A program made the translations under genes and the position numbers. Under the pieces are notes generated by a model, which saw only the letters and a list, made by a program, of their open reading frames with translations, had not been told where the DNA came from and did no database searches. From Candidatus Methanosuratincola petrocarbonis (ex Vanwonterghem et al. 2016) (lineage in GTDB: Archaea; Thermoproteota; Methanomethylicia; Methanomethylicales; Methanomethylicaceae): DNA of 11,991 nucleotides. Of the stretch, positions 4,411-11,991 are shown piece after piece. Where the stretch lies: positions 6,193-18,183 of the forward strand of contig MAGV01000036.1 in assembly GCA_001717015.1 (NCBI GenBank), written 5' to 3'. Numbering within the stretch: position 1 is the first letter of the stretch; each line of letters opens with the position of its first letter.

Positions 4411-5094
4411 TTATCTCTTGCCCCTGAGCACGGCTATTGCCCTGATCAGGTCGGTGGTGTCCTCCATCCGGTCTGACGACGCCTCGATGTTCTCGACGAC
4501 CTCTTTTATCATCAGCCAGTCCCTTATGTGCGGGGCTGTATCCCCCCAGTCGAGTATCTTCGCGATCAGGTCGACGCGCACATCGTCGATCTTCTCCTCG
4601 AGGCGCTCAGTCTTCTCGGCTTTGCTGACCACTTCCCCGGTCCTCTTGACGAGCGCTTCGATGGTCTCCATGAGGCTCAGAGCCTCCTCCAGGAGCAGGT
4701 CCACCAAACCGCGGATGCCAGACTTCACGTCTTCGGGGATGTCTTTCGGGTGGGCGTACAGGAGCTTCCTCGTCGCGGACTTCACGTGGGCAGCGATGTC
4801 ATCGGCGGTCATGAGCAGGCGTATGATCTCATCCTGGTCCATCGGGTGGAGCGAGGATTCCATCAGCTCTTTCATTATGTTCTCCTTGATCTGGTCGGCC
4901 TCACGCTCTAGGGCTATTATCGATGACGACATCTCCTTGGCTTTCGCGCAGTCGCTGTCCAGGAACGCGTAGACGTACTCGCGGAACTTCCTGACTATCG
5001 AGAATATCTTCTCCATGTGCTTCTCGCAGGCAGATATCGCCTCCTTCTCGGCCCGCTCTCCGAGCCAGAAGCCTATGTGCCCTGAGCCCAGCAT
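4411..5094 (-). CDS. DUF47 (PhoU-like) protein, partner of the PiT permease
   Basis: A 227-residue, almost entirely helical protein of the DUF47/PF01865 family, the PhoU-like cytoplasmic proteins that usually accompany PiT permeases and are thought to control them. Two PhoU-type acidic metal-binding motifs are seen: EREADQIK (E64, D67) and ENIEASSDRMED (E201, E204, D208). ATG 5094 gives the family's usual length, starts shortly before the first helix, and follows a TATA box and a GAGG motif. The frame stays open for 61 further codons to 5277, but those residues have no family counterpart and would place the TATA box inside the gene. The two genes converge with 72 bp between stops instead of sharing an operon, so the permease and its regulator are made from separate promoters here. 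The 4339-4410 gap shows only AT-rich sequence. Confidence 0.88.
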   Translation of the reverse strand: MLGSGHIGFWLGERAEKEAISACEKHMEKIFSIVRKFREYVYAFLDSDCAKAKEMSSSIIALEREADQIKENIMKELMESSLHPMDQDEIIRLLMTADDIAAHVKSATRKLLYAHPKDIPEDVKSGIRGLVDLLLEEALSLMETIEALVKRTGEVVSKAEKTERLEEKIDDVRVDLIAKILDWGDTAPHIRDWLMIKEVVENIEASSDRMEDTTDLIRAIAVLRGKR

Positions 5095-5126
5095 TATACC
5101 GACCCTCTGCAAATAATTGCTGTTGG

Positions 5127-5137
5127 GTATATATTTA
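5127..5137 (-). promoter_or_regulatory. TATA box of the DUF47 gene
   Basis: On the minus strand the sequence reads AAATATATAC with AGTA upstream. The centre is about 38 bp before ATG 5094, which puts transcription start near 5106 and leaves a leader of about 12 nt containing GAGGGT as a weak SD. Confidence 0.55.
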
Positions 5138-5325
5138 CTATTCTGTGGGCAAACACTCTGCCAACCCATGTTAGTGACGACCGAGACTATCTCCTTTATA
5201 TTCTCGATCCAATCAAGAAGTCGAGATCCCATCACTTTCAAGGCCATCTGCAGCAAAAAATGCAGGATCTGGATCACAATCTATGTTTAGTGCAAGTGCA
5301 CCCATGAATCCGAATTTACACATAG

Positions 5326-5475
5326 TGCCTCTGGGCGCTTACACTGCGCCTTGCTAGTCCGGAACCAAACCTCCTCAGGGGGGCGTCGTTCAATATAACC
5401 AGCTACGGCGAGGGTCGGAGCATGTGCTACACCTATGACCTGGCTTCAAAAAGTTTCGTGAAGGAAAGTTTCTGA
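5326..5475 (+). pseudogene. Probable 3' remnant of a lost host gene
   Basis: An open frame of 49 codons closes with TGA at 5473-5475 and follows an in-frame TAG at 5323. It has no usable start codon before ATG 5422, which would leave only 17 residues. From about 5359 the codon choice looks like host coding sequence (TAC, GGC, GAG, AGC, ACC, CTG, AAG) and the peptide reads like a protein C-terminus (NITSYGEGRS, then MCYTYDLASKSFVKESF). I recognise no family. The best reading is the tail of a gene whose 5' part is gone; a chance open frame is the alternative. Confidence 0.3.
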
Positions 5476-5481
5476 GAAGCT

Positions 5482-5509
5482 GGAGGTCGAGATGGTATTG
5501 AATTTTTAA
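5482..5509 (+). pseudogene. Interrupted gene start: strong SD and ATG followed by a five-codon frame
   Basis: GGAGGT at 5482-5487 is close to a perfect archaeal SD and stands four bases before ATG 5492. It starts 6 bp after the stop of the remnant frame, exactly as a second gene of an operon would. The frame encodes only MVLNF and closes with TAA at 5507-5509, inside sequence that has become AT-rich. I read it as a host gene cut off within its first codons by the insertion of foreign DNA; a chance SD is possible. Confidence 0.3.
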
Positions 5510-5547
5510 AATCATCGACTATTAGTGGCTATTAATTTCTGCGGATG

Positions 5548-8500
5548 CTATTTTGTTGATGCAGCTTTCCATTTGTCAATTCTATATCTATAGTCGATTA
5601 TGGGAATTTTTTCTACTAGATCCTTGAATTTTACTGTTGGGTTTTGTATTGGGTAAACTATAGGATTGTCTAAGGCGTTTTCCACGGTGTAAAGCCAGTA
5701 TGCTTCTTTAATTCTGTTAGCCGTTTCCCATTCATTGCTTGTCATTTCTACTGATCCTGTTGTGCTAAAGGATTTGACTTCAATCACTCTGTCAAAAGAT
5801 TCTACATCGTATCCCTTATATTGGTCAGAGACATCTCTGATTCTGTTTCTTTCCTCTTCTGTTTTGGCCCTTTCCATTTCGTATTTTATGACTGCCTGAA
5901 CTCCTGCGTTTTCCACTTTCTTCTTGATGTCTGCGCCTGGCTTTCCTATGATTATGGCCGTGCCTATAAGCTCGTAGAGGGTGTAAATATTAAATACTGA
6001 GGATATTTCTGTTAGATTTGAGTCAAGTTCTAGTTTTAGCGAGTTTATTGTGCTCTCTTCTTTATTTATTAGCTTGGAGTAGTGGGGGCTCTCTTGTAGT
6101 CTATTCTGGTAATCCTCGATCTTTCTGCGACTTTCCTCAACTCTTCTTGAGTAGTACGCTATGATTATGTCTCTTGTTTTGTTCTTTATTTCCTCGATTT
6201 TTGCTGAGGTTTCATTTTTGAGGTCGGATACGATTTTGAGTAGAGCCTGATCCGCTGAATTTTTGCCTTCAATAATGTTTTTAGTGTCTATTTCAGGCTC
6301 TTCCCCGACGACAGGTTCGAGATCCCATATGCTCCTTGGATCTATTTCCCTTATTTTTCCCTCGGAGTAATGAAGAACTATTATTTTTCCGTTTCTTTCT
6401 TGTCCCTTTCCATCTTTCAATATGACGCGATAAATGTAAAGTATTCCGCTTAATGTTTCGTGCTTAAAGATTGAGACGGATGGCTTCATAGCGTCCAAAA
6501 TCATACTCATTATGCATTTGTTTCCTAGAGCTAGGTATGGATAGTTTTTCTGTTCTGCAACTGTATTTGAAAAGCTGCCGACCAATGTTCCGTAGTTAAG
6601 ATTGTGTGCAAGCTTTGCCGGAAGCATTAGCCTGTAAACTTCGTCTTCTTCTCTTACGGGCTCTATTTTCCCTCCTTTAGTTCCCAGGTAGACCTCTATG
6701 AAGCGTTTAACTTCACCTTTTTCGACGGCTTCGAGTCTTACTTTTTTGATTTCTTCAAGTTTGCTTCTATCAAGCCTGTGTCCAGAGAGGAGGGCGTTGA
6801 TTTCATTCAATATTCGCCTGCGTTCCTCAATTATATCGTCAACCCTCTTGACTTTGGCCTCCCAAAGCTCCTTAGGTACTTTCAAAAATTCTTCGTATAG
6901 GCTTGAAATGCCTTCCTCTGAAAGAAGTTTTCCAACGACATCGTAGACTTTGTCGCCTATGGCTTCTTTTATTGCTTCGATTTTTTCTAACAGTTTACTT
7001 AAAATGTATCCGTCAATAGTGCCCGACAATATAAAGTTGTAATAGTATACAGGTCTTGTCTGACCTATTCTATGTATCCTCCCCATTCTTTGCTCGAGCC
7101 TGTTTGGGTTCCATGGAAGGTCGTAGTTTATCATTATGTTGGCGAATTGCATGTCTATGCCCTCACCAGCCGCGTCAGTACAGACCATTATTTCCGCACC
7201 ATTTGGATCCCTAAAATTGGCCAAAGCATTATGTCGCTCATCGACGTTCATGACTCCGTATATTTTCGCGAGTCTATACTTGTTGGCCAGGTTTTCGAAA
7301 AGGTAGTCTACGGTGTCTCTATATTCGCTAAAAATCACTATTTTTGTCGTTTTATCGCCTTTCTTTATCGTATCTATGAAGCTCATCAAATGTTTTATTT
7401 TAGAATCTTCATGGATCTTTTCAAGTTCAGCTAACAACTCTGCAAGTTCTTTGCGATCTTCTTCTATGGAGTAGCCCGAAATCCCTACGACCTCTTGTTC
7501 GCTTTCCTCATATTGTTCCTCGTCGAACTCTTCTTCAGCCTCCTTCATTCTTTTTATGGCCTGTTCTGCGTTCACAGCCTGTCCTAGCCTTGTTAGTCTT
7601 CTTTCCAATGTCAGTTTGAGGGCTTTTAGGGATGACGACGCTCTTTTGCGAATTATGCCCCCTAAAAACCTCATTGCGTTGTATTCCTGTCGATCCCGGG
7701 CTTCGTCTATACGTCTTGAGATATATTCATCCACCATTCTGTGAAGTTTTGTTTCTTCCTCGCTTATGGGGATAGATACGGTTTTGCTTTGCCTAGGAGG
7801 GAAGACTTCTTTCCCTTCAAGGTCTACTACATCCTCTTTTAGGTTCCTAATTAGAATGTGAGAGGCGGATTGCACATCCGTTATGTAGGGGTCTAAAAGT
7901 TTGATTCTATTAAGATAGTCCTCATTATCGCCGTTGTGGGGCGTCGCCGTCAGGAAAAGCATGTGATTAGTTCTTGGAGCTAGGCATTCGCCCAGTTTTA
8001 GTCTGTCAGTATTTAGCGCTAGTTTGTGGGCTTCGTCGATTACGGTTATGTCGAATTCTGCGTCTTCAATCATTTTTATAACATGGCTCTGTTTTAGATA
8101 GTCCATAGATGAGATGTAGCAGAACTCCCTTTTGCCTAGAGGGGGCCCGTGTATTTTTACATAGGTGGAGTCTAGGATTTCTGCAGTCATTTCAAATCTG
8201 TTGTTTAATTCATCGCGCCACTTGTAGAGCAGAGCCTTTGGCACAACAAATAGTAGCTTGTTTGCTAACCCTCTGGCTTTGAGTTCATTTGCGACCAACG
8301 CAGCGGTTATTGTTTTGCCTAGACCGACCTCGTCAGCGATCATCATCCTTGGCATGTCAAGGATTCTTGTGACTTCGTCTATCTGGTGGGGAAAGATCCT
8401 GATTTTTGTTGATGAGGCTAGAACGTAGGGGTTGAATTTGTATTCTGAGAGCAGCCTGTAGGCGTCCATTGACAGGATGAAGTCTAATCCATCGTCCAGA

Positions 8501-8670
8501 TTTACAGTAATTATGCGGTCTATTAAAGAGAGGTCTTCTTCTAATTCTTCGATTGGATGCCACGTGTCGGCTGTGAGCGTTAAAACTCGAGCGAAGTTTC
8601 CCCTAAGCTCTAGAACTGCTCCAGTTTCGTTTTTTCCTCTTATTTTAACCCTTGAGCCTATCTGAATCAT
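5548..8670 (-). CDS. SNF2-type helicase with C-terminal DUF3883 (NOV_C) nuclease-like domain
   Basis: A 1040-residue cytoplasmic DNA-dependent ATPase. Order: an SH3/KOW-like N-terminal segment (1-50, with GSRVKIRGKNETGAVLELRG); helicase domain 1 with Walker A DEVGLGKT (113-120), DEAH (212-215) and LTATPHN (240-246); a charged acidic insert (about 370-420); helicase domain 2 with IFSEY (446-450), TDAAGEGIDMQ (498-508) and motif VI QRMGRIHRIGQ (527-537), the SNF2/Rad54-like form; a long helical region (570-900); and a C-terminal domain (about 925-1030) matching DUF3883. There D955, E964 and K966 (GYDV, then IEVKS) fit a PD-(D/E)XK active site, followed by the typical TSNEWETA and YWLYTVENA. It should translocate on DNA, with the last domain cutting or gripping it. 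ATG 8670 has only a weak AGGG SD, 12 bp after the methylase stop, so translation may be coupled. Nuclease activity is inferred, not shown. Confidence 0.9.
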   Translation of the reverse strand: MIQIGSRVKIRGKNETGAVLELRGNFARVLTLTADTWHPIEELEEDLSLIDRIITVNLDDGLDFILSMDAYRLLSEYKFNPYVLASSTKIRIFPHQIDEVTRILDMPRMMIADEVGLGKTITAALVANELKARGLANKLLFVVPKALLYKWRDELNNRFEMTAEILDSTYVKIHGPPLGKREFCYISSMDYLKQSHVIKMIEDAEFDITVIDEAHKLALNTDRLKLGECLAPRTNHMLFLTATPHNGDNEDYLNRIKLLDPYITDVQSASHILIRNLKEDVVDLEGKEVFPPRQSKTVSIPISEEETKLHRMVDEYISRRIDEARDRQEYNAMRFLGGIIRKRASSSLKALKLTLERRLTRLGQAVNAEQAIKRMKEAEEEFDEEQYEESEQEVVGISGYSIEEDRKELAELLAELEKIHEDSKIKHLMSFIDTIKKGDKTTKIVIFSEYRDTVDYLFENLANKYRLAKIYGVMNVDERHNALANFRDPNGAEIMVCTDAAGEGIDMQFANIMINYDLPWNPNRLEQRMGRIHRIGQTRPVYYYNFILSGTIDGYILSKLLEKIEAIKEAIGDKVYDVVGKLLSEEGISSLYEEFLKVPKELWEAKVKRVDDIIEERRRILNEINALLSGHRLDRSKLEEIKKVRLEAVEKGEVKRFIEVYLGTKGGKIEPVREEDEVYRLMLPAKLAHNLNYGTLVGSFSNTVAEQKNYPYLALGNKCIMSMILDAMKPSVSIFKHETLSGILYIYRVILKDGKGQERNGKIIVLHYSEGKIREIDPRSIWDLEPVVGEEPEIDTKNIIEGKNSADQALLKIVSDLKNETSAKIEEIKNKTRDIIIAYYSRRVEESRRKIEDYQNRLQESPHYSKLINKEESTINSLKLELDSNLTEISSVFNIYTLYELIGTAIIIGKPGADIKKKVENAGVQAVIKYEMERAKTEEERNRIRDVSDQYKGYDVESFDRVIEVKSFSTTGSVEMTSNEWETANRIKEAYWLYTVENALDNPIVYPIQNPTVKFKDLVEKIPIIDYRYRIDKWKAASTK

Positions 8671-8682
8671 AGCGCTTTCCCT

Positions 8683-11277
8683 TTAAGTGAAGCTGTCGAG
8701 GGTCCTTCTTTGCATTGGCTGGCCTATAACATCTGATATAGAATCTAAAACTTGGAGTTCGATTTTTTCGCTGTCTCTAAGTTCTTCGCCTTTGTTAATG
8801 AGCAGTCTATAATGTTTTGTCAGTAGGTTTATGATGTATTGGAGTTCTTGAAGCCCGAAGTTGCCGTAGGATGACAGCAGCTGTTTGATGGCCGGCGCCC
8901 CTTTCTCGTTGGCTGTTTTTAATAGGTAGAGGAGTTGTTGGTAGAGGTTGTTTCTTTCCACTTCTTCGGGGCTGATGTCTAAGGGGACTTCTGTGAAGGG
9001 CGTTATTTCTATTCCGCCGCTGATTTTTTTGGCGTAGCCCTTTTTCACTAGGGCGTCGACGGTCAGCCCATACGCTCTAACAACTTTTAGGGCTTCATCA
9101 CTAGGGATTGAGCTTCTGTAAAAGATTTTTGTTATAAGTGCGAATGAGGCTTCGGGTCCTAAAATGTTAAGCGATCTTCCAGTTAGCTTTCTTACGACTT
9201 CTCTGAAGATGAAGTCTCTGGCTTCGCCTATCAAATCTTCAAATTTAGCCTTGAAATCAGCCCTGTAGCTTTTGATTTGGGAGTATTGTGTTAATTCTTC
9301 AAGCACTTTACCGTAGGCCATTATAAGGAGGTCGGTTATGGGAAGGCTGAGCAGATCCTCGTCGCTTAAACCTTCAATTAACTCTTTTATCTCTTCCTCA
9401 ACTCTGGGCATGAGGCTTTCAAAATAAGCCTCTTTATCCTCAAGTATCTTCCTGCATGAAAGCACTATGGAACTCATGAAGGAAGTCTTGCCTCTTGCCA
9501 AAGGATTTTCTGTGCTTTCCGTGTGCACGGCATAGCTGGAAACCACCCTAAACCTGGATCCCCTTAAAACCTCTAAGAGAAGATCCCAGGCCTCGGTACT
9601 TGAATGGGCAAAGAAGACCACCAAAAGCCCGTCATCTTTAAGGGACTTGTAGATGTTTTGGAAGGCTAAAGTCATGCCTTTCTTATAAAACTCTAAAGCA
9701 AGTTTTTCGTTTCCGCCGAACCTACCCTTGCTTAAAACAAGATCTTCATCGCTTGGAACTGTTGATGGCAACTCAGGATAATAGTCTCTGAGAACTCTAG
9801 TGAGCCACACATAGAAAAATTCGCTCAACTCCGCATAAGCGACATCCTCCATATATGGCGGGTCAGTTAAAACTAAGTCAAATTTGTTTGATACAGCCAT
9901 ATTTACTGCAGAACCGCGCAAAACCTTAGCAGGCGTCTTATTCAACGCCGCAAAACTTACCGCATCAACAACATTCCGTAATACACTGTGAAATGAACCG
10001 CTAGTCTTCTCAAACGGGTTGGTTTCAGCGAAATTGTAGATAATACGGGGACTTCTCATAGATAGGGAATCACAAGTTATCTGTTTTGTTGGGTCCCATC
10101 TCACACCAATACAATTGTGATCAACATGCTTGCACATCATCAGCCCCAAGTAAGTGGCTATAGCCTTTCTGTATTCTTTGTCCACTATTTCCGAGCAGAC
10201 ATCGCGGATGATGCGCAAAAGCGTGGACATCAAAAGCAATTGTCTCTCGTTGAAAAACTCAAACCACTTTTTCAAGCCATAATTAGTTACACGGAATAAT
10301 TCTGATTCTTTGAGTTCCTCTTGCGGGATTAGGTCTTGGCTTATTAGATTTGCCCATTGGTCCTTCAGCTCTGCCGTTGCTTTATTGAATAATTCTATAT
10401 CCTCCATCGTGAACGGTTCATAGTCTTTTCCTTTCTGTGCCTTGACTACGACTGCTATCATTTGTTTGTCTCTTCTCTCAGCAATGTCTTTGGTCATGTG
10501 CTGATAACTTATTGCGTTTTTGCATTTTATGCAGGTGGCTTCCCCGTCTTTCTGGGTGTACTTCGAGCCTTCTTTATCACTTACCATTCCAACTTCTATC
10601 TCAAAGTCGTTGTCTTTCGTAGGCTTAATCCTATAGCCTGTTTTCCTTTTTTTATCAAGCCACATTTGATTCGTTAGGGGCACTCTTTGACCGCAATAAG
10701 GGCATTTTATACACCAACACCACAAATAATGCAAGGTTTGGCGACCGTTCTTTCTATAGTAGAACTTGCCGACCTCTTTCTTCGCCCGCTCTATTACCAA
10801 TTTGCCATATCGCTCAACGTCCTCTGCAAGCCTTTCGCCATAAACAGCCGGGTATTCCAACGTAGCCTTCAATATAATGTGTGCAACAGGATTATAGTCC
10901 ATAGCTGTGCAGTTAGGCCCCAAACGGGCCGCCTCAAATAGAAGGTTGCCAGCTCCAGCAAAAGGATCAAACACGGTTAACGAGTCTAGTGGCTTGCCCG
11001 CATTCTTCTTTATAGACTCAAGCTTTGGCGCATAATTGAAAGCTCTTTTTTCCCTACCGAGCCCCAGCAAAGGCTTAACATCAGCCAGATTGGTGTTTTC
11101 AGGAAGCAACGAAAGAAGTGTTACAGTCCTTCCAACAATAAGCGGCTTTCTCGTCCACCAATAAATCATTTCACTTATAGGCGGCCTGCCAAGTTTTTCC
11201 TTCCTAGCCTCCTCGCTAACATCCGCAAACAGTTTTAGGTGTTCGACGCTCTTGTTGTCCATCAATGTTTTATCCAT
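8683..11277 (-). CDS. DUF1156-family (COG1743) DNA methyltransferase with zinc ribbon
   Basis: An 864-residue S-adenosylmethionine-dependent DNA methylase, probably adenine-N6. Its N-terminus (about 10-90, with RPPISEMIYWWTRKPL) is the DUF1156 signature. The AdoMet-binding motif I is FDPFAGAGNLLFEA (103-116) and the catalytic motif IV is TDPPY (471-475). The roughly 355 residues between them include a zinc ribbon made of CPYC (C192, C195) and CIKC (C249, C252), with two more cysteines at 187 and 189. The last 160 residues are helical and winged-helix-like, perhaps for DNA or partner contact. DPPY is usual for N6-adenine enzymes but does not exclude N4-cytosine. ATG 11277 is chosen because GGAGG lies seven bases upstream; a longer frame to 11313 has no such support. 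The gene overlaps the preceding small gene by 8 bp. It would protect host DNA from the helicase-nuclease. Confidence 0.92.
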   Translation of the reverse strand: MDKTLMDNKSVEHLKLFADVSEEARKEKLGRPPISEMIYWWTRKPLIVGRTVTLLSLLPENTNLADVKPLLGLGREKRAFNYAPKLESIKKNAGKPLDSLTVFDPFAGAGNLLFEAARLGPNCTAMDYNPVAHIILKATLEYPAVYGERLAEDVERYGKLVIERAKKEVGKFYYRKNGRQTLHYLWCWCIKCPYCGQRVPLTNQMWLDKKRKTGYRIKPTKDNDFEIEVGMVSDKEGSKYTQKDGEATCIKCKNAISYQHMTKDIAERRDKQMIAVVVKAQKGKDYEPFTMEDIELFNKATAELKDQWANLISQDLIPQEELKESELFRVTNYGLKKWFEFFNERQLLLMSTLLRIIRDVCSEIVDKEYRKAIATYLGLMMCKHVDHNCIGVRWDPTKQITCDSLSMRSPRIIYNFAETNPFEKTSGSFHSVLRNVVDAVSFAALNKTPAKVLRGSAVNMAVSNKFDLVLTDPPYMEDVAYAELSEFFYVWLTRVLRDYYPELPSTVPSDEDLVLSKGRFGGNEKLALEFYKKGMTLAFQNIYKSLKDDGLLVVFFAHSSTEAWDLLLEVLRGSRFRVVSSYAVHTESTENPLARGKTSFMSSIVLSCRKILEDKEAYFESLMPRVEEEIKELIEGLSDEDLLSLPITDLLIMAYGKVLEELTQYSQIKSYRADFKAKFEDLIGEARDFIFREVVRKLTGRSLNILGPEASFALITKIFYRSSIPSDEALKVVRAYGLTVDALVKKGYAKKISGGIEITPFTEVPLDISPEEVERNNLYQQLLYLLKTANEKGAPAIKQLLSSYGNFGLQELQYIINLLTKHYRLLINKGEELRDSEKIELQVLDSISDVIGQPMQRRTLDSFT

Positions 11278-11623
11278 AAAGCATCCTCCAAGCCCTTCTG
11301 GGTTTTTTATCATCGTTCAAGAATTTAGTTGCCCAGAAATGAAGATCAAGCTGGCTTAAGCTATTTACAGCCTGCAAAAACTTTAAGGCTTCATCCAGGC
11401 TTCTTGCGCATTTTAAGGCTTCTAAACTCACAAGAGTTTTTGCGGCATCATCGTCCCATTTTCCGCTTTCAAGCTTTAAATGCTCCTCCGCTATTTCTTT
11501 TCGCCACCCTCTAAGCCTAGAAAGACTGACTTTTTTACGTCCAAACCTATCCTCTATTACCGCCTGCAGACACGCGGTTTTTCCACTCCCGCTTTCTTCA
11601 AGGCGGTATTTCACAGACCTCAA
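11270..11623 (-). CDS. Unrecognised 117-residue protein of the defence operon
   Basis: I do not recognise this protein. It is basic at both ends. The first 40 residues could form beta strands (SVKYRLEES, ACLQAVIEDRFGRKKVSL), and the rest looks helical, with an aromatic-basic tail (LDLHFWATKFLN, then KKPRRAWRMLYG). The GSGKT near residues 12-16 resembles a P-loop but lacks the leading strand and the first glycine, so I do not call it an ATPase. The proposed start is TTG 11623, with GAGGGG seven bases upstream and four bases after the previous stop; GTG 11614 is an in-frame alternative. The tight spacing on both sides, including the 8 bp overlap with the methylase, argues that it is a real subunit made with the complex. 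It could be an adaptor between ATPase and methylase, or a DNA-binding specificity factor; both are guesses. Confidence 0.75.
   Translation of the reverse strand: MRSVKYRLEESGSGKTACLQAVIEDRFGRKKVSLSRLRGWRKEIAEEHLKLESGKWDDDAAKTLVSLEALKCARSLDEALKFLQAVNSLSQLDLHFWATKFLNDDKKPRRAWRMLYG
11285..11289 (-). promoter_or_regulatory. Shine-Dalgarno site of the methylase, inside the small gene
   Basis: GGAGG on the minus strand lies seven bases before ATG 11277 and within the last codons of the 117-residue gene. Ribosomes finishing that gene at 11270 would be placed directly over the methylase start, suggesting translational coupling. Confidence 0.7.
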
Positions 11624-11627
11624 ACTG

Positions 11628-11991
11628 CTAACCCCTCAAACCATACCTTTTCAAATCTTCGCTTAGATCCTCTTTAGAGCTTACTGTGATTTCGCCGTTT
11701 CCAGAATAGCCCTTAGACCTAAGTACATTAAGCAGACTCTCAAGCTCCCCGAGCTTCTTCAATTTACTTTCAATGCTGACCTTGTCTTCGCTTTCGTTTA
11801 TAAGACTGATTGAAATGCGCATATCCAAGGCCCGACCCACAGACAAAACTTTAAGCTTATTCAGGTGCTCCAAGGCTTCATTCAAACTTTTACATTCAAA
11901 ACGATAATTATAAAGGGGCTCTGGCGGAGGCCAAGGTTTCCTTTCCTCTTCTTTTTCTTTTTCCCGCTCCTTTTTCTCTTCAACGTAAACG
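11628..11991 (-). CDS. C-terminal part of a large protein, probably a DUF499 (COG1483) AAA+ ATPase; truncated by the window edge
   Basis: The minus-strand frame ending at TAG 11628 stays open to the last base of the window, so its start lies outside. A TTG at 11885 is in frame but is not a credible start, because the frame continues upstream without a stop. The visible 120 or so residues begin with a strongly charged linker (VYVEEKKEREKEKEEERK), then proline-rich PWPPPEPLY, then a compact alpha/beta domain (YRFECKSLNEALEHLNKL, RALDMRISISLIN, GNGEITVSS). A charged and proline linker before a small C-terminal domain is what I would expect of a DUF499 ATPase, the usual partner immediately upstream of DUF1156 methylases. 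The ATPase core itself is not in view, so the family is inferred from context. It is 4 bp from the next gene. Confidence 0.5.
   Translation of the reverse strand, partial: VYVEEKKEREKEKEEERKPWPPPEPLYNYRFECKSLNEALEHLNKLKVLSVGRALDMRISISLINESEDKVSIESKLKKLGELESLLNVLRSKGYSGNGEITVSSKEDLSEDLKRYGLRG

Follow-up and report, generated by a model that had tools for sequence, protein, structure and literature searches.

A small DUF499-associated protein as the fourth gene of a probable BREX-related operon in Candidatus Methanosuratincola petrocarbonis

We describe an operon in an 11,991-nucleotide stretch of contig MAGV01000036.1 from Candidatus Methanosuratincola petrocarbonis (the window hereafter), in which four open reading frames (ORFs), all on the minus strand and tightly packed, encode the end of an ATPase, a small protein, a DNA methylase and a helicase. 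We consider it likely that this operon is a chromosomally acquired four-gene, BREX-related, restriction-modification-like system with an Hma core, in which the small protein would be the ATPase partner coupling DNA state, and the helicase fused to a NOV_C nuclease would cut foreign DNA. The preliminary description of this DNA had read the locus as a predicted modification and restriction unit, which agrees with proposals in the cited passages of PMC8565338, PMC7641849 and PMC12839542; such a unit has already been named, as Hma and as a BREX-related (BR) system. The small protein of 117 amino acids (aa), which that description passed over, is the new element and the least explained part of the operon. 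Below, the prefixes G, C and L denote genomes, contigs and loci.

The small protein and the DUF499 ATPase are paired recurrently, across gene orders and phyla. The loci related to the window were the best 80 of at least 514 confirmed stretches, picked by similarity to the window methylase, and 300 genomes of the phylum were sampled, with 40 regions taken from the 69 matches listed. The DUF499 set comprised 115 genes of at least 500 aa, which were reduced to 94 unique genes by removal of 8 near-duplicates, 7 genes without downstream room and 6 loci chosen for their small protein (L239, L242-L246). The small protein is encoded directly behind DUF499 in 59 of these 94 genes, i.e., in 26/49 loci with a NOV_C helicase, 12/12 with a PLD helicase and 21/33 with no classified helicase; L032, where the small gene is 469 bp off, was treated as lacking the protein in this count and as having it in the tree below. 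The gap between the two genes is at most 20 bp in 51/59 cases and the commonest arrangement is a 4-base overlap (21 cases), gaps being measured from the first possible start codon, so that overlaps may be overstated. Both the order ATPase-small protein-methylase-helicase and the order methylase-ATPase-small protein-helicase contain the pairing. The profile of the archaeal clade with the latter order (A7) yielded 24 matches in 22/300 genomes, 23 of them beside DUF499, and that of the window clade (A8) yielded 13 matches in 12/300 genomes, 11 of them beside DUF499 (for G285, DUF499 is visible in L143). Among DUF7680 loci returned from 50 bacterial genomes, DUF499 lies upstream in 19/20, the other being a contig end. 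On a FastTree phylogeny of 100 DUF499 genes (a quick, midpoint-rooted tree with weak deep nodes and several long branches, and including L239 and L242-L246), presence of the small protein requires 5 changes, compared to 28.3 after shuffling, with 0/500 shuffles as low. Neither condition that the preliminary description named as refuting it was borne out: the upstream protein has an ATPase core (see below), and many of the further loci studied show linkage of the genes for methylase, ATPase and helicase.

Single-protein searches reveal little of this family. For the window protein, neither Pfam nor NCBIfam gave a match over the cut-off and PADLOC gave only a weak one, to LmuA (E = 0.0041); a single-sequence search returned only two near-identical clusters. 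The 127-aa small protein of a second operon (L004/L015) is 22% identical to it over 82 residues, with a pair E-value of 0.003. Profiles reach further. Iteration from one archaeal small protein (L020) through 7838 ORFs reached convergence at 65 ORFs. Lengths of 80-330 aa apply to 62 of these, of which 59 immediately follow DUF499; the remaining three are that of the window (behind the ATPase fragment), that of L032 (the next gene, 469 bp) and that of L053 (contig edge). The profile of 15 bacterial, DUF7680-type small proteins (A6), compared to 8814 ORFs, gave 44 matches at E ≤ 1 when the loci of its own members are left aside, and 44/44 belong to the small family, a label assigned by a profile in which the A6 query sequences are included; the window protein scored E = 0.055. 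Setting aside 4 matches that duplicate other loci (including one copy each of the query members L051 and L099) and 9 matches in loci fetched for the family, 31 of the 44 are in loci not chosen for it. Profile-profile comparison with hhalign gave E-values of 7.9e-10 for A8-A6, 2.3e-10 for A8-A7 and 5e-9 for A7-A6, with real scores of 56.5-61.9 (59.6-61.9 for the pairs with the window clade) versus maxima of 14.9 for column-shuffled (60 per pair) and 15.3 for reversed controls. When the genome of the window was searched with A7, which does not include the window protein, the sole match was that protein (E = 4.9e-5), and the copy on contig C6 was missed. With A8 as the query, 80 proteins were returned, one of them annotated as PF24728 (DUF7680), and a Bathyarchaeota relative (P0003) carries PF24728.2 in its precomputed annotation.

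The alignment of the family (A4) has 64 rows, i.e., 60 members and 4 unproven sequences (L157, L158, L159, L088), with the duplicates L015 and L143 omitted. Pfam DUF7680 matches 26/64 rows at E ≤ 0.05 (best 7.4e-48) and Pfam DUF3780 matches 0/64. Pfam DUF7680 does not match the window protein, whose distant homology is seen by profile comparison alone. The most conserved positions are W97, F/Y/W96, E/D93 and R/K113; because these are unlike a catalytic site, we expect a binding protein. As a separate observation, the four unproven sequences are ORFs of 146-184 aa that occupy the slot of the small protein; for L157, L158 and L159 membership is not supported (best hhalign E-value 0.0098), and by eye their strand-helix pattern could be that of the same fold, whereas the L088 ORF was only placed in A4, with no profile comparison. 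All four were counted as without the small protein.

The structural model of the window protein, predicted from the 64-row alignment, is confident (pLDDT 91.9, pTM 0.85) and comprises strands 3-10, 16-25 and 28-38, helix 39-48, a two-residue strand 54-55, and helices 58-72, 76-88, 91-103 and 107-116. The DUF3780 model, from 8 sequences, has a pLDDT of 76.5 with low values at both ends, and shows three strands, helix 88-108, strand 119-123, helices 125-138, 143-155, 158-172 and 181-191, and two short terminal helices. The two models thus share their predicted order of elements; the cited passages of PMC12839542 give DUF3780 as four strands and five helices. DUF3780 matches DUF7680 in hhalign with E = 1.6e-5 over 99 columns (score 39.2 versus 18.8 for the best shuffle), and with 119 sequences E = 1.3e-4. 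DUF3780 was also compared directly with the window clade and with the archaeal clade A7; neither hhalign match is significant, and the comparison with the merged small clades gave 0.053. DUF499 was recognised adjacent to DUF3780 in 4/8 loci (3.5 kb around each), and in L175 and L176 DUF3780 begins at the DUF499 stop. Given the DUF7680 match, a moderate and indirect sequence link, together with the order of elements and the gene slot, DUF3780 is probably kin to the small family. Searches of PDB sequences gave E = 0.17 for the DUF7680 profile, E = 0.74 for the DUF3780 profile, and no match at 0.001 for the methylase and the ATPase piece. DUF3780 was found in 0/151 Thermoproteota genomes, where no positive control matched. 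In the passages cited, PMC12839542 presents DUF3780 as specific to Type-2 BR systems and fused to ASCH/PUA and RAMA domains. Since ASCH fusions are reported there and here ASCH occurs on DUF7680 proteins, the authors of that study may already be pooling DUF7680-type proteins under DUF3780 in Type-2. The word DUF7680 was found neither in the open-access library searched nor in the main text of PMC12839542.

Several observations weigh against the four-gene system with a dedicated ATPase partner proposed above. The small protein is missing directly behind DUF499 in 35/94 genes, so that not all BR systems depend on it; a 25-gene DUF499 clade (support 99) is without it, and among the members of this clade is the HEPN_Swt1 fusion on C48, the third DUF499 gene in the genome of the window. 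In L240 (G081:C75, 976-3812), a small-family protein (DUF7680, 4.4e-9) is two genes from brxL and without DUF499, and the family may therefore serve a BREX-type system too. In L238 (G289:C1:55000-74500, 5020-11645), another such protein is located between a 358-aa protein, itself preceded by a 1015-aa protein with nSTAND matches below the cut-off, and a DEAD/DEAH helicase, with no DUF499 in view; this may be a further defence unit that employs a small protein of this family. The homology signal also varies: with a deeper A8 (83 sequences), the hhalign E-values weaken to 1.5e-7 (A6) and 2.3e-6 (A7), and the A6 profile, searched against the whole genome at E ≤ 0.1, found neither the window protein nor the C6 copy. 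The ASCH fusions described below are all in bacterial loci, and the ATPase gene is crossed by an assembly gap, so that its integrity is only partly visible. Two further cases are G314:C49, a broken copy with no DUF499 in view, and G194, a marginal match unconfirmed by the family profile.

Such observations could mean that the window holds a plain three-gene Type-1 BR/Hma operon, in which the small ORF is incidental or fast-evolving and has no role. The small-protein-free clade and the lack of a database match for the window protein would be expected in that case, and Type-1 BR was described in 2026 with three genes only, in the cited passages of PMC12839542. Yet homologues occupy the same slot over several archaeal and bacterial phyla, with the close spacing and few tree changes given above, and the predicted fold is confident. 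We consider the three-gene explanation highly improbable.

Alternatively, the small protein could be a regulator of the BrxA kind, one that would bind the BrxC-type ATPase and control its DNA binding, rather than a reader of modification. PADLOC BrxA profiles give weak matches in 4/64 rows (best E = 0.0062), which are within chance for 64 queries, and an identification as BrxA was rejected because these matches are not significant; a search of 250 genomes for archaeal BrxA gave no sequence for comparison, with no positive control matching. BrxA is all-helical, whereas the predicted fold here has three or four strands and five helices. On the other hand, BrxA binds BrxC and inhibits its DNA binding (cited passages of PMC13326643), and the relative in L240 is near brxL. 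On balance, a BrxA-like regulator appears rather unlikely.

The domains fused to the small protein bear on its possible role. ASCH, a modified-base reader domain, is fused N-terminally to the DUF7680-type small protein in 5 loci labelled Chloroflexota (L033, L046, L062, L064, L076), i.e., in 3/64 A4 rows and in L046 and L064. These fusions are why a reader role is favoured. They would also be expected of a modification-dependent, Type IV-like system, in which the small protein, like EVE/ASCH readers, would detect modified bases of the invader and the methylase would tag self differently; the fusions of DUF3780 with ASCH/PUA and RAMA, and the proposal in PMC7641849, in the passages cited, concerning a standalone EVE beside archaeal COG1743-DUF499-SNF2-nuclease operons, point the same way. 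However, the window small protein has no reader fusion, and EVE/ASCH was found in 0/5 neighbouring proteins scanned. We regard a Type IV-like system as unlikely.

We return to the restriction-modification-like system with a dedicated ATPase partner, the proposed working of which draws on homology with BREX and on published proposals. The DUF1156 enzyme would methylate host DNA as the mark of self. The DUF499 ATPase, a BrxC relative, would assemble on DNA with the small protein, which would be its dedicated partner, i.e., an adaptor or reader coupling the state of the DNA (modification) to the ATPase. DNA judged foreign would then engage the SNF2 helicase with its fused NOV_C nuclease and be cut. 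According to the cited passages of PMC13326643, the partners BrxA and BrxB affect how BrxC assembles and binds DNA, which makes a small dedicated DUF499 partner plausible. A broader idea, which we put forward tentatively and consider possible rather than probable, is that DUF7680, DUF3780 and the archaeal small proteins form one superfamily: an old, dedicated subunit of DUF499 ATPases that would sense DNA modification and license the nuclease (NOV_C or PLD), crossing the boundary between Type-1 and Type-2, even near a BREX gene (L240). If the small protein is such a partner of the ATPase, definitions of Hma/BR with three genes would overlook a subunit that a sizeable fraction of loci encode, and heterologous three-gene constructs might not work because the fourth gene is missing. 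A small, confidently folded, ATPase-linked protein would also be an entry to how DUF499/BrxC-type systems tell self from non-self.

The three large proteins are recognised by profiles and carry intact catalytic motifs. Of the ATPase gene, the window contains just the final 120 codons, and an assembly gap of 7 N follows directly; past it, the remainder (L003:2172-4502) is DUF499 (Pfam, 8.2e-51) and PADLOC HmaC (7e-86), with GGGKTH and LILIDE motifs. The DUF499 ATPase core that the preliminary description proposed to look for beyond position 11991 is therefore present, and, of the four proteins it proposed for profile searches, HmaA, HmaB and HmaC were matched and the small protein remained without a family over the cut-off. 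By profile the ATPase is not BrxC (HmaC 7e-86 versus BrxC 0.011), and it groups with L162 on the DUF499 tree (support 100). The strand-helix order of its C-terminal 120 aa is compatible by eye with the RRM-like domain described in the cited passages of PMC12839542. The methylase, 876 aa in its longest form, contains DUF1156 and N6_N4 methylase domains (Pfam; PADLOC HmaB, 5.8e-75), a DPFAGAG motif ahead of DPPY, and CxxC pairs; the cysteines C204, C207, C261 and C264 of its 4-Cys insert are invariant in the alignment. The site at which it would methylate host DNA is probably N6-adenine. The 1040-aa helicase has SNF2, Helicase_C and NOV_C domains (Pfam, NOV_C 2e-15; PADLOC HmaA, 1.7e-96) and the motifs GLGKT, DEAH and QRMGRIHR. 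Among 70 aligned NOV_C domains, with duplicates kept, D955 is conserved in 69/70, E964 in 70/70, K966 in 70/70 and E980 in 69/70, the pattern expected of a PD-(D/E)XK nuclease, which predicts nuclease activity; DUF3883 is termed a restriction endonuclease domain in the cited passages of PMC3710099 and PMC12839542. Pfam gave no PLDc match in the window helicase. No PglZ was among the Pfam matches of the scanned proteins, which were part of the ORFs, and a PglZ profile built from L023 matched only itself.

The features are collected in the table. The ATPase and small genes are separated by 4 bp (11624-11627), and the methylase and helicase genes by 12 bp (8671-8682). The preferred methylase start has GGAGG 7 bases upstream and gives an 8-bp overlap with the small gene; the longest ORF (8683-11313) would give 44 bp. 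The positions and spacings of the four minus-strand genes reported previously thus agree with the ORF list, the 8-bp overlap holding for the preferred start. The earlier statement that there is no separate restriction endonuclease gene is also right, because the nuclease is part of the helicase protein.

Table. Features of the operon in the window (positions of the 11,991-nucleotide stretch).
Feature	Position	Strand	Basis and remarks
C-terminal 120 aa of DUF499 AAA+ ATPase (HmaC)	11628..11990	-	ORF open at window edge; domain and PADLOC profiles of the upstream part
117-aa small protein, DUF499-associated small family (relatives Pfam DUF7680 and archaeal small proteins; probably DUF3780)	11270..11623	-	Profile comparisons; TTG start, GAGG upstream
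DUF1156 DNA methyltransferase (HmaB)	8683..11277	-	Preferred ATG 11277, alternative ATG 11313; Pfam, PADLOC
DUF1156 domain of the methyltransferase	11095..11226	-	Pfam, residues 30-73 of the ORF from 11313
SNF2/SWI2 helicase fused to predicted NOV_C nuclease (HmaA), 1040 aa	5548..8670	-	Pfam, PADLOC, motifs
NOV_C / DUF3883 domain, PD-(D/E)XK-type residues D955, E964, K966, E980	5653..5898	-	Pfam, residues 925-1006

The same gene order, ATPase-small protein-methylase-helicase, is found again on a second contig of this genome (C6, L004), where the helicase leaves the contig, and in a complete operon of the congener G004 (L015); since the order recurs in one and is complete in the other, the layout is more than chance. 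This has a bearing on whether the operon is a decayed or misassembled remnant. The source assembly (1.27 Mb, 84 contigs, 74.5% complete) and the gap within the ATPase gene could suggest so. Conversely, the other frames are open with catalytic motifs intact, the small-protein cluster is found on 6 contigs of up to 1.54 Mb, and a complete operon of the same design exists in the genus. A remnant is thus scarcely credible. The PhoU gene of the flank has an orthologue in 6/7 congeners searched (not in G007), with two neighbours on the far side of PhoU kept, and at this site the four operon genes have no match in 6/6 congeners within the stretch examined (only 5.1 kb in G005); G004 and G006 have DUF499 loci elsewhere in the genome. 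The GC content is 42.4% in the operon versus 54.9% in the flank, and presence is patchy (DUF1156 in 7/41 genomes, DUF499 in 55/300). Because of the empty congener sites, the GC shift and the patchy presence, the history of the operon fits horizontal transfer.

Some neighbouring genes in related loci should be noted in their own right. A metallo-beta-lactamase-fold protein is encoded directly behind the helicase in 15 distinct archaeal loci of the order methylase-ATPase-small protein-helicase (e.g., L138:14862-16127, L147:3299-4600); Lactamase_B is over the cut-off in both members scanned and RMMBL in one, and in L160 the gene is split into two ORFs. It is a possible fifth gene and second nuclease. 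It was not seen in the window operon, and the main text of PMC12839542 does not contain the word lactamase. Three Type-2-like loci of archaea (L161, L166, L016) each have a gene of 174-184 aa directly behind the PLD-helicase. The third DUF499 locus of the genome of the window (L167; G000:C48, 776-7126) encodes the HEPN_Swt1-DUF499 ATPase and, after it, proteins of the GmrSD_N and Schlafen AlbA_2 kinds; a HEPN-DUF499 form appears in the cited passages of the HEPN survey PMC3710099.

Finally, the operon can be compared with the named systems, which are taken here as described in the cited passages of the respective papers. Hma (PMC8565338) is a three-gene system of helicase HmaA, methylase HmaB and ATPase HmaC. 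The three large proteins of the window match these PADLOC profiles strongly, but the window has a fourth, small gene between HmaC and HmaB; with four genes instead of three, it is a variant with an Hma core and not a typical Hma member. It should be noted that HmaB is an m5C methylase in the text of PMC8565338, as opposed to an adenine methylase in the PADLOC profile. The archaeal COG1743-DUF499-SNF2-nuclease operon with EVE proteins (PMC7641849) contains the same three large proteins, and the passages cited name no small fourth protein. The same set is called BR in PMC12839542, which distinguishes (i) Type-1, with a PD-(D/E)XK helicase and three genes; (ii) Type-2, with an HKD-nuclease helicase and DUF3780; and (iii) Type-3, with PglZ. 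Type-1 as described there further has an RRM-like domain at the C-terminus of the ATPase and a TUDOR domain at the N-terminus of the helicase. The window resembles Type-1 in its DUF499 protein, its DUF1156 methylase (predicted N6) with a 4-Cys TRD insert, and its SNF2 helicase with a C-terminal PD-(D/E)XK domain (NOV_C). Type-1 as published there consists of ATPase, methylase and helicase only, whereas the window and the 26/49 NOV_C-helicase loci add the small protein, and because of this fourth gene we do not file the window as Type-1. The likeness to Type-2 is in the small, predicted alpha+beta protein directly behind DUF499, modelled with the same strand-helix order as DUF3780; however, it has no Pfam DUF3780 match, and Type-2 has an N-terminal PLD/HKD domain on the helicase, whereas the window has a C-terminal NOV_C. 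What goes beyond the cited passages of PMC12839542 is the presence of a DUF7680/DUF3780-type small protein alongside NOV_C (Type-1) helicases. The tie of this short protein to the ATPase suggests that the division between Type-1 and Type-2 should be redrawn on the ATPase tree. The window operon combines a helicase-nuclease of Type-1 with a small subunit like that of Type-2.

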